36,288 nucleotides of DNA. Origin: Spirochaetota bacterium (GTDB lineage Bacteria > Spirochaetota > Spirochaetia > Treponematales > Rectinemataceae). The stretch lies in the NCBI GenBank assembly GCA_029778945.1, contig JAKPBN010000428.1, positions 1 to 36,288 on the forward strand, in the 5' to 3' direction. Position 1 is the stretch's first letter. Every line of letters begins with the position of its first letter. Below, in pieces: positions 23,741-36,288 of the stretch. Under the pieces are notes generated by a model. It saw only the letters and a list, made by a program, of their open reading frames with translations, did no database searches and was not told where the DNA came from. Made by a program: the position numbers and the translations under genes.

Positions 23741-23767
23741 TAAAGTTGACTAAAATACTGCCGATAT
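23741..23767 (+). promoter_or_regulatory. Strong sigma-28 (FliA-type) promoter for the giant lipoprotein gene
   Basis: TAAAGTTG at 23741-23748, an 11-nt spacer, and GCCGATAT at 23760-23767 match the enterobacterial sigma-28 consensus TAAAGTTT-N11-GCCGATAA in 14 of 16 positions with the exact spacing. The overlapping TTGACT could serve as a sigma-70 -35, but no -10 hexamer lies at 15-18 nt. Predicted start near 23775 gives a leader of about 55-65 nt. This ties the downstream surface-protein operon to the flagellar/chemotaxis regulon. Confidence 0.65.
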
Positions 23768-23830
23768 CTGGAAGTGAGGTATTTTTAACTCCGGAGCGGC
23801 CCTGGCCTCCAAGACATAATACTGAAGGAA

Positions 23831-26800
23831 ATGAGAGTAATGCGGACCATCAATATCTCCCGCCTGACCCGATCCGCCGCGCCTCTGGTCCTGGTTCTGG
23901 GGGCCTTCCTTGCCGCCGGCTGCAACGCCTTCAATGTGGGCCTTGGAGCCAAGGTGGATATCGCCGAGCCCGTGGTAGCCATCGTCTCGCCCACCAACGG
24001 CCAGTACGAGAACGGGGCCTTCTCCCTCCGGGGCAGCGTCTCCGACGACCTGGGAGTAAAGTCCGTGGGCGTTGTCGTCTCCTTCCCCGTGGAGACGGGC
24101 CTGGCCGCCAGGACCATGGCCGCCACCGTGGACGGCGGCTCCTGGCAGGCCGACCTGGACGCCGCGGCCCTCGCCCCGGGGACAGAGGCCAATGCCTCGA
24201 TCGTCGTCACCGCCACCGACGTATCCTCCAAGACTTCGGAGCGGAAGATCATCCTCTACCTGGACAACAAGGCCCCCACGGTCAGGCTCTCGAGCCCCAC
24301 CGACGAGGATCTTGCCAATGCCGCCCAACTCTACAACGGCTCCCTCGTCTTCAAGGGCTCCTCGGACACCGATGTGGCGGACCTCATCCTCGAGGCGGGG
24401 GGAAGGGACTTCCACCCGACCCCGGGCAACAACGCCTCCTTCCGCATCCAGGTGGACACGGCCCTCCTGGGGGACGGGGACCATGACTTCAGGCTCTGGG
24501 CCGTGGACAACGCGGGCAACAAGTCCGTGGAGAGCGTGGGGACCCTGCGGGTAGCCCAGGCCTCCGACCTCCCCGTCCTATCCTTCAAGGGCGCCGAGGC
24601 CGATGTGATCGACCTCACGGACACCAGCCGGAGCCTCCTGACCAACCGGAACGTCTTTGCCCGGGGCCTCACGATCAATGGCAGCCTCTCCGACGACGAT
24701 GGCCTCGACCTCTCGAGCCTCCGCCTCGTCCTCAAGGACGCGGTCACCGGGGACACGGTGGCCACCTGGCAGAGGGGGGATCCGACCTACAACATCAGCG
24801 TCAAGGCCCTGGGCTCCAACACCGATCCCGCCTACTCGTCCTATGTCACCCAGGCTAGCCTCGCCTTTACCATCCCCGCGACCTTTCCCCAGGGCATCTA
24901 CAAGCTCTCCGGGACGGTCTCGGATTCCCTTGGGGCCAAGGCCGCCCCCCTGGCCTCCTCGGGCCTGCCTGCCCCGAGCGTCGCCGTGGACTCCTTCGCG
25001 GATACTTATTTTGTGGTCGATGACGGCAAGCCCACGGCGGTGATCACCAGCCTGGCGCCCACCCAGAAGACCCTCAGCGCCGCCGGCACCGCCGAGGCCG
25101 GCCTGGGCGTCCGGGGCATCGAGTACCAGCTCGATGGCACCGCCGAGGGCTCCTGGACCTTTATCGAGAGCGCGGACAAGGGCCCCCTCTTTGCCTGGTC
25201 GATCCCCTCCACGGTCCTTGGGGAAAAGGCCTACAAGCTCTATGTGCGCCCGGTCTCCACGGGCAATGTCCGGGGCCCCGTGGTCTCGGGCAGCTTTAAC
25301 ATAGACACGACCCTGCCCCTAGCCTCGATCCAGGCCTCGGCGCCCTCGACGGGCTCCGACGCCCGCAAGCCCGCCTCCTTCCCCGAAATCAGCCTCGCCG
25401 ACGCCCCCGGGGCCGTCCTCGCCACGGTCAACGGCAAGGTCCGCTTCCGGGGCATAGCCTCGGACAAGGCCCTGGCCTCGGTGTCCTGGGCTATCAGCCA
25501 TGTGGCGAGCACGGCGAGCTCCCCCTGGACCCTGGACGGCGCGAGCCTGGCCGAGGGCAGCTTTAGCGCCGCCACGATGAGCGACTGGAGCCTCGTGGTC
25601 GACACAAGCGCCGCGCCCTATGTGGACGGCCAGTCCTATGCCCTGGCGATCAAGGCCCTGGACGAGGCCGGGAACGAATTCCAGGTCTCCTCCTCCTTCC
25701 TCGTCGACCAGGCCGGGGACAAGCCGAGCCTCGACTACCTCTCCATGAAGACCACGGGGATCGACGCGGCCACCGCCAAGCTCAACCTCCTGGGGGTCAA
25801 CGACCTCGTGCTCACGGCCACCCTGGTGGACGACGACCGGGTCGACCCGGACAGCCTCCTCCTCTCCTTCAACGGCGGGGCGGCGGTGGCCGTCACGGGC
25901 AACCAGGTCTCCTCGGGGGCCATAACCATCAACCAGTCCCTGGACAGCCTCCCGGAGGGCCGCAACTGGTTTACCCTCAGCTTCAGCGACCTGGGCAGCT
26001 GGAAGCATGGCCTGGCCCCGGTCCAGACCCTGGTCGGCCCCATCTGGTTCGTGGTGGACACGGTCCAGCCCCAGATCGCCTATGACGCCGCGGCCACAAG
26101 CTACAACCTGGGGAACAGCCACCTCACGATAGGCGGCACCATCTCCACCGCCAATGGCCTCGATCCCGACGCCACCTTGGTCCTCAAGATAGGCGGGAGC
26201 CCGGTGACCCTCAAGCTGGGCGCCGAGGTTACGGTCAAGTCCACCGGGACCCCCAATGTGTGGAACTGGTCCCACGAGCTCGACGCCTCGGCCCTGGCCG
26301 ATGGCCCCCTGGCCATCCGGGCCACCGCCAAGGATGAATTCGGCCTGCCCGGATCGATGGACTTCCAGGTGACCGTGGACAAGACTCCTCCCGTCCTCTC
26401 GGCCAGCAACCCCGCCGTGGTCTTTAGCCCCAGGAACGGCCGCCTCCTCTTTGGCCCCGCCCGGGACGCCACCACCGGGGTGGCCTCGATCGAGGCCGTG
26501 GTCCAGGACGCGGCCCTGGCCGTGGTCGATCCCGCCCTGGCCCCGATCAGCCTCAACCTGGACGCCGCGACCCCCGGCTCGGCCGGAGGCGGCTGGACCC
26601 TGGACACCACGGGCCTGGCCACGGGAAGTTATACGATCTCCATCAGCGCCAAGGACAAGACGGGGAACAGCGCCGTCCTCGCGCCCTTTGCGATAAAGGT
26701 CGACCAGGAGGCCCCGGTGGCGAGCTTCGACGCCATCCCGGGCAGCCTTGTCGACTCGACCCTCTATTGCTCCGGGGCCACCGTGATGCCCGCGGCCTGG

Positions 26801-35161: not shown

Positions 35162-35185
35162 GCTAGGCCATAGGTGGTAGACCCC

Positions 35186-36288
35186 ATGATCGCAAAAAGC
35201 AGCCTGCGCCGCAGCCTTCCCCTCCTCCTTGCCCTGGCGACCCTAGCCTGGGCCTTCCCGGTCCCGGCCCCGGCCCAGGCGGGAAAGCTCCCCCCCCTCG
35301 AGGCCGCTACGGGCCTCGAGGACTGGGTCCACGACTTTGACCTATCGGGCCTGGCCGCGGGCAAGTACAATATCCTTGTCACGGGCAAGGATGTGGCGGG
35401 CAACCTGTCCTCCGGGGGCTCCATCAATGTCTATGTGGATCCCGCCTCGGACCTGCCCCTGGTCTCGGTGATCAATCCCGGCCCCCTGCAGAGGGTGGGC
35501 GGGGACTTGAATATCGTGGGCACCTGCGTCGACGACGATGGGGTTGCCAAGGTCGAGGTGAGCGTGGACGGGGGCGATTTCCGCCCCGCCCAGGGGGGGG
35601 AATTCTGGTCCCTCTACCTGAAGACCGCGGAGCTCCAGGATGGGCGGCGGAGCCTGGCCATCCGGGGGACGGATATCAACGGCCTCGTGGGGCCTGTAGT
35701 CAAGGTTTCCTTTGACCTCGATCGTTCCCTGCCCCTCGCCAAGGTGGACCTGCCTCCCCCGGGGGCCCTGGTGGCGGGCTCGATCAAGCTGGAGGGCAGC
35801 CTCGCGGACGCCAACGGCCTATCCGGCCTCGAGGCCTCCCTGGATGGCAAGGCCTTTTCCAAGGTCGAGCTCAAGCGGGGCAAGGATCCCCGGGTGGCGG
35901 GCTTTTCCTTCGCCGTGGACACCCGGAAATTCCCCGATGGCCCCCGGGTTGTCTGGCTCCGCAGCCAGGACTCCGTGGGCAGCCGGGGCAGCGCGGCCTT
36001 CCTTCTCTTTGTGGACAACACCAGGCCGAGCATCGAGCTCGCCCTGCCGGCCAAGGACGCCGCGGTCAACGGGAGCTTTGCCGTCGCCGGAGCCGTCCGG
36101 GACGCCATTGGCATAGCCCGCCTGGCCTATGAATTCGACGGCCGGGAAAAGGGGGAGATAGCCCTTACCCCGGGCAATCCCTTTTTCTCCAAGGTCTTTG
36201 ACGCCGGCCCCGTCAAGGGCGACCGGGCCAGGCTGGTCCTCACCGCCGAGGACAGGATCGGCAATGTCACCAAGGTCGAGCTCGCCCC
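35186..36288 (+). CDS. Secreted Ig-repeat protein, C-terminus beyond window
   Basis: The frame is open from the ATG at 35186 to the window end (367 codons). AGGTGG lies 8 nt before the ATG, 24 nt after the previous stop. A signal peptide is clear, with core LPLLLALATLAWAF and a likely cleavage after PAPAQA; it has no lipobox, unlike its two upstream neighbours. The mature part repeats the Ig-like pattern of the giant protein: LDRSLPLAKVDLPPPG, GSLADANGLSGLEASLDG and FVDNTRPSIELALPAKDAAV, with a module spacing of about 100 residues. At least three modules are present. The final size is unknown. It probably works with the giant lipoprotein, for instance as a partner in a surface or periplasmic structure. 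Confidence 0.85.
   Translation, partial: MIAKSSLRRSLPLLLALATLAWAFPVPAPAQAGKLPPLEAATGLEDWVHDFDLSGLAAGKYNILVTGKDVAGNLSSGGSINVYVDPASDLPLVSVINPGPLQRVGGDLNIVGTCVDDDGVAKVEVSVDGGDFRPAQGGEFWSLYLKTAELQDGRRSLAIRGTDINGLVGPVVKVSFDLDRSLPLAKVDLPPPGALVAGSIKLEGSLADANGLSGLEASLDGKAFSKVELKRGKDPRVAGFSFAVDTRKFPDGPRVVWLRSQDSVGSRGSAAFLLFVDNTRPSIELALPAKDAAVNGSFAVAGAVRDAIGIARLAYEFDGREKGEIALTPGNPFFSKVFDAGPVKGDRARLVLTAEDRIGNVTKVELA

Follow-up and report, generated by a model that had tools for sequence, protein, structure and literature searches.

We analysed a 36,288-nucleotide stretch of DNA (the window) from a Spirochaetota bacterium of the order Treponematales; the draft genome to which it belongs, as contig C383, totals 4.07 Mb, and position 36288 is the contig end. 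Its last genes encode a giant lipoprotein of immunoglobulin-like (Ig) repeats, a smaller lipoprotein and the beginning of a second Ig-repeat chain, which we call the Ig-barrel protein. We propose that the two Ig chains form a motility-coupled scaffold of the periplasmic envelope under sigma-28 (FliA) control, and we give this statement as a whole a probability of roughly 0.55. Sigma-28 control of the system in Treponematales, taken by itself, is very probable from the sequences compared here.

The locus would be transcribed as a late-flagellar unit in a spirochete with periplasmic flagella. Its core would be a pair, one Ig chain (the giant) held by a lipid anchor and the other tethered to the outer membrane through a C-terminal OmpA-like eight-stranded barrel, with the lipoprotein acting as partner of the barrel-anchored chain. 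Both chains would be produced along with the filaments, and may serve as a periplasmic scaffold or spacer, fixed to the outer membrane, that orders the envelope around the rotating flagella.

Sigma-28-type promoters at the pair

The promoter before the giant gene (23741..23767, plus strand) consists of a -35 element, TAAAGTTG (23741-23748), and a -10 element, GCCGATAT (23760-23767), separated by N11, and predicts a transcription start at about 23773-23775. The initial annotation of the window, made from its sequence alone, had pointed to this motif and its exact spacing, and both hold. The bare sigma-28 pattern is unenriched genome-wide (15 matches with at most one mismatch vs 17 in the reversed control) and is likewise no commoner than the reversed control in related genomes. 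Outside its position the motif therefore says little, and we used it only together with position and orthology. For the same reason the yardstick was built from the clade's own flagellin promoters, as a position weight matrix (PWM) of 24 sites that precede flagellin genes in this genome and in relatives from the order. The scan of the host genome suggested in the initial annotation recovered the motif at flagellin promoters and no general excess of the pattern.

The flagellin sites share the form T[ACT]AAG[TC]Y-N11/12-[GTA]CCGATAN and score between 15.8 and 23.4. The window site, in which a -35 TAAA and a -10 GCCGATAA-like element stand at sigma-28 spacing, scores 23.0 with the same matrix, the top value on either strand of the window. 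A score of 23.0 arose once in 20,000 Markov simulations of 300 nt of upstream sequence of the same composition (frequency 5e-5). Only two sites with a PWM score of at least 20 are found in 657 kb (12 clade stretches, both strands), and both precede a giant gene; the second, TAAAGTCTTATTCCAAAAAGCCGAAAT, lies ahead of the ortholog of the giant gene in a different genus (G018), where the near-match TAAAGTCT-N11-GCCGAAAT scores 21.3. FliA, whose absence the initial annotation had regarded as damaging to its proposal, is encoded in the genome on contig C55 (TIGR02479, 290.8 bits; cut-off 189.6). One of the 24 flagellin sites corresponds in sequence to the Treponema denticola flaB2 promoter (-10 CCGATAA, -35 TTAA), the start of which was mapped by rapid amplification of cDNA ends (PMC9481697). 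According to preliminary data of the same authors, FliA (TDE2683) binds this promoter and is essential for flaB2 (PMC9481697).

The -10 element is also conserved ahead of the partner gene. Within the 225 nt that surround the start, [GTA]CCGATA[ATC] occurs in 41 of 75 Ig-barrel orthologs from distinct contigs, vs 45 of 541 other genes at the same loci (Fisher p 5e-20). After removal of similar upstream sequences it is found in 30 of 64 (p 2e-13); the same dereplicated sequences gave one match in 64 when reversed and a mean of 1.2 when shuffled. Of the aligned sites, 96% have a T at position -20 counted from the -10 element, which fits a -35 TAAA-like element separated by a 16 nt gap. Many of the matches among the control genes, and eight of the nine controls scoring at least 16, come from a single neighbour, a DUF4015 putative glycosyl hydrolase. 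This gene, near the Treponema Ig-barrel gene, encodes a secreted protein of ∼790 residues (for example L163:17197-19566, L177:9543-11921, L193:18584-20923); in most species a TAA[AT]-N16-GCCGATAA-type motif stands exactly 15 nt before its first ATG, and it possibly has a leaderless sigma-28 transcript.

Near-consensus sigma-28 sites are present in T. denticola-type genomes. One of the genomes compared (G069, 2,843,201 bp) is T. denticola ATCC 35405, since the published TDE2699 primers map to 2744140-2744220 (PMC2965109). In this strain TAAAGATTTAAGCTGTTTTAGCCGATAA stands 44 nt ahead of the gene for a 1555-residue Ig-barrel protein (2761784-2766451, minus strand), and the gene for a giant Ig lipoprotein of 2178 residues (2755226-2761762) begins 21 nt after it.

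The genome of the window also carries an identical TCAAGCCGCCTTTTAGAAGGCCGATAT on two further contigs, C334 and C465 (L023:358-384 and L027:1501-1527). The copy on L023 precedes a 257-residue open reading frame (ORF) that by eye resembles a metallo-beta-lactamase-fold or diiron protein and is a candidate second sigma-28 target.

Architecture of the two Ig chains

The family of Ig-barrel proteins spans 1,490-2,400 residues and is best conserved in its N-terminal Ig domains and its last 700 residues; the middle part varies in length. In the window only the N-terminal part, with signal peptide and Ig domains, is present (35186..36288, plus strand) before the contig end cuts the gene. The ortholog from the same genus has 2342 residues with ten Big_7 matches and ends in a predicted OmpA-like eight-stranded barrel, although no Pfam or NCBIfam model covers this C-terminus. 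AlphaFold, applied to 43 C-termini, resolves the last 155 residues into eight strands (predicted local distance difference test score, pLDDT, with a mean of 83 for the whole fragment and mostly 84-96 for the barrel blocks). Among solved structures, the OprF, NspA and OmpA barrels are closest in fold (Z 14.8-13.4), with OprF superimposing at a root-mean-square deviation of 2.8 over 126 residues (Z 14.8). The aromatic C-terminal residue for barrel insertion is a Phe in 69 of 70 full-length orthologs. No PF00691 peptidoglycan-binding domain was found by Pfam in the 2342-residue ortholog, so that the barrel is better described as an OmpA-like anchor than as a member of the OmpA family. Neither the scan of this ortholog nor the model, with its eight strands, revealed a 12-stranded translocator barrel or autotransporter domain.

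Turns T1-T3, on the side of both termini, are constant in length (standard deviations 0, 0 and 0.5), and loops L2-L4 on the opposite side are variable (5.3, 3.5 and 2.3). Known outer-membrane barrels have their variable loops outside, and an even-stranded barrel has both termini in the periplasm. By these rules the Ig chain of the barrel protein is predicted to lie in the periplasm, and we consider this location probable. It is the compartment in which spirochete flagella rotate (PMC7225975).

The giant gene (23840..33985, plus strand) encodes 3384 residues from ATG 23831 (ORF 23831-33985), as first annotated, or 3381 residues from ATG 23840. The latter start is more likely from the spacing of a probable ribosome-binding site, GAAGGAA (23824..23830). 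The product has a lipobox, LAAGC, with Cys31, and the Pfam Ig domains Big_13, Big_3_3 and Big_7, in agreement with its original description as an Ig-repeat lipoprotein. The lipobox Cys is invariant across 14 aligned giant orthologs and opens a family motif, C-x(n)-GLG-x-K-x-D. The residue at lipobox position +2 was considered as a sorting signal and dropped, because it differs from ortholog to ortholog (N, S, D, K, R and others). Giant orthologs in 13 relatives range from 1826 to 5152 residues and have related C-terminal regions. About 450-530 residues at the C-terminus belong to no Pfam family; this region is possibly beta-propeller-like, but its AlphaFold model (pLDDT 44) is of low confidence and too poor to name a fold. 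Scans of the giants with Pfam and NCBIfam found only Ig-type repeats; they showed no C-terminal domain, no secretion domain of the RTX, type I or type V kind and no N-terminal retention module.

In Treponema genomes (G181:C97, G181:C63, G293:C9) the frames of giant lipoproteins extend further still, reaching 6,498-7,564 residues, and are among the largest frames in this material. Several genomes apparently have more than one giant copy, some of them side by side (L257, L260, L268), and G036:C1 has several separate giant Ig lipoprotein-like genes with frames of 5,078-6,178 residues.

The middle gene, P0002 (33992..35161, plus strand), begins 6 nt after the giant gene, and the third gene begins 24 nt after P0002, at ATG 35186, with GTG 35174 as a possible alternative start. 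These spacings, like the secreted Ig-repeat nature of the third product, are as initially annotated. The 389-residue P0002 product is indeed a lipoprotein, but its earlier designation as binding-protein-like is weakly supported. It has no Pfam match of its own; one homologue matches SBP_bac_8 (9e-7), and the family profile meets ATP-binding cassette (ABC) sugar-binding proteins at E 0.02. Searched by sequence against the PDB, P0002 gave no match alone and a best E of 0.013 with the profile. Upstream, the divergent ubiD gene (22127..23596, minus strand), encoding a UbiD decarboxylase, lies outside the system and adjoins the giant gene also in G001 and G009. It is part of a minus-strand cluster beside the operon (18073-23596) for UbiD, UbiA, a flavoprotein and an NMT1-type ABC transporter.

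Distribution and competing explanations

Among 39 close relatives, 20 have the Ig-barrel family. In seven of them (G001, G002, G007, G009, G016, G018, G035) the locus runs from the giant Ig lipoprotein through a small gene to the Ig-barrel gene, with the small gene on the opposite strand in G001. The small gene itself varies by lineage: G007 and G018 have P0002 homologues, and G009 has a PF10023 aminopeptidase-like lipoprotein. In Treponema the pair is reversed, with the Ig-barrel gene first and then a giant lipoprotein of at least 2100 residues. A giant gene is adjacent at 16 of 65 unselected Ig-barrel loci (13 downstream, 3 upstream); the 20 stretches that show the linked pair were mostly picked for the proximity of both genes, and they demonstrate the operon, not its frequency. 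The three-gene unit of the initial annotation is consequently not what relatives retain: the middle gene is exchanged between lineages, and the stable core is the giant Ig lipoprotein and the Ig-barrel protein, which occur in both orders and are often but not always linked.

In a survey of 294 genomes of the order, 275 with flagellin and 19 without, the Ig-barrel family was present in 160 of the flagellated genomes and in none of the flagellin-less ones. The N-terminal profile of the giant matches 162 of the 294 genomes but also matches the Ig repeats of the Ig-barrel family; the apparent co-occurrence of the two (both in 158 genomes, one alone in 2 and 4) was for this reason not counted as independent evidence. 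A FliA-type sigma factor is encoded in all 39 genomes examined for it (38 above the cut-off), flagellin-less ones included, and we rejected its presence as a marker of motility. Since flagellin-less genomes, where examined, keep the sigma factor and lack the pair, the pair follows the filament and not the sigma factor. Together with the FliA gene, the motif at the order's flagellin promoters, the -10 element before Ig-barrel orthologs and the T. denticola-type sites, this absence from all 19 flagellin-less relatives provides computational support for the membership in the motility programme that was proposed initially.

Several observations weigh against our proposal. A strong -35/-10 pair precedes only 2 of the 11 giant genes examined; the nine others have weaker sites or none, and several carry a lone CCGAT-like element or nothing. 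About 40% of the flagellates, including a genome of T. pallidum size, lack the system, which makes it an accessory and not a core part of motility. All 19 flagellin-less genomes belong to one family, so that independent losses may be few, and flagellin-less relatives (G005-G024) keep a FliA/WhiG-type sigma, so that sigma-28 need not mean motility. The barrel and its topology are predicted from orthologs, the window copy being truncated before the C-terminus. Spirochete lipoproteins can be surface-exposed, and the giant may therefore lie on either side of the membrane. A hook mutant should retain FlgM, and protein changes confined to flgE are therefore the relevant test of FliA dependence. The T. 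denticola interval TDE2699-TDE2720 contains the pair; Table 3 of the published comparison, which covers proteins altered in the flgE mutant and in the motB mutant alike, includes no tag from this interval (PMC6930189).

Sigma-28 control could be real and the Ig chains, the giant lipoprotein in particular, could nevertheless lie outside the cell as a motility-coupled adhesin or fibril that attaches to substrates or neighbours while the cell swims or crawls. Many of the giant Ig proteins known from other systems are adhesins, lipoproteins of spirochetes often reach the surface, and the repeats are weakly similar to Ca2+-stabilised adhesin repeats and to the Leptospira surface protein OmpL47. We nevertheless regard this explanation as unlikely: the barrel of the partner has eight strands and is not a 12-stranded autotransporter, its Ig chain emerges on the side of the constant turns, and the giants lack RTX, type I and type V secretion domains. 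The initial annotation had left open adhesion or a structure associated with the flagella; at least for the barrel protein, the periplasmic, outer-membrane-anchored scaffold is favoured and surface adhesion, which fits the barrel worse, is the less likely.

FliA might instead serve an envelope or morphology programme in this clade, with the pair belonging to that programme and having no motility function. Its retention in flagellin-less relatives implies another use of sigma-28 there, and the DUF4015 gene near the Treponema pair bears the motif too. The flagellin-less genomes that retain FliA are, however, the very ones in which the pair is missing, and we judge such a role improbable. Least probable, and in our view a slim chance, is a coincidental match in the window with the operon driven by a sigma-70 promoter. 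This would agree with the unenriched bare pattern and with the many giants that have no strong copy, but not with a score equal to the best flagellin promoters and seldom reached in simulation, with the other strong copy, which stands before the ortholog in a different genus, and the lack of any further site of this strength in the stretches scanned, or with the conserved -10 element before the partner gene.

Significance and relation to known systems

How the outer membrane is kept around filaments that rotate in the periplasm is an open mechanical question for spirochetes. A giant pair linked to sigma-28, with one member held by the outer membrane, from which it is predicted to extend into the periplasm, is a direct candidate part for it, and genes that rank among the largest in these genomes become linked to a defined regulatory programme. 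The proposal is testable now in T. denticola, where the pair is adjacent with a near-consensus sigma-28 promoter in front and where deletions and cryo-tomography are established. A more specific version, in which giant Ig chains deployed by sigma-28 together with the filament space, bundle or lubricate the periplasmic flagella of Treponematales, and represent a so far undescribed kind of motility accessory restricted to endoflagellates, is put forward only tentatively.

We found no description of a giant Ig chain anchored by an outer-membrane barrel and paired, behind a late-flagellar promoter, with a giant Ig lipoprotein in the open-licence literature searched, in line with the initial remark that no described system of this composition was known; nor did we find a mention of the tags TDE2705-TDE2711 in the open-licence literature on T. 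denticola. The parts (sigma-28 promoters, Ig arrays, OmpA-like anchors and lipoproteins) are of known kinds, and there is a real chance that the pair is a new type of motility accessory.

The regulatory side resembles the FliA class III regulon and the T. denticola flaB2 promoter (PMC9481697), with the same -35 and -10 elements and spacing, FliA in the genome and the motif at the order's flagellin promoters. The predicted FliA-dependent targets, however, are giant envelope Ig proteins and not parts of the filament, motor or chemotaxis system. The giant Ig adhesins of the LapA, BapA and RTX type (Ca_tandemer, NF033510) are likewise very long bacterial Ig arrays, but the pair described here has a lipid anchor or a C-terminal outer-membrane barrel in place of RTX, type I secretion or retention modules, and a sigma-28-type promoter before it. 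Leptospira OmpL47 and Lig are also spirochete proteins of Ig-like repeats. The profile similarity to OmpL47 is weak (25.3 and 42.7 bits, below the NF047441 equivalog cut-off of 250), no Big_2 domains were found, and the C-terminal outer-membrane barrel and motility-type promoter set the pair apart. The closest structural parallel to the Ig-barrel protein is the OmpA/OprF type of anchor, which shares the eight-stranded barrel (OprF, Z 14.8), the C-terminal aromatic residue and a periplasmic domain joined to the barrel. The sequences are only about 10% identical, the order of the parts is reversed, with the periplasmic part N-terminal in the Ig-barrel protein, and an Ig array of roughly 20 domains, as estimated from its length, replaces the single peptidoglycan-binding domain.

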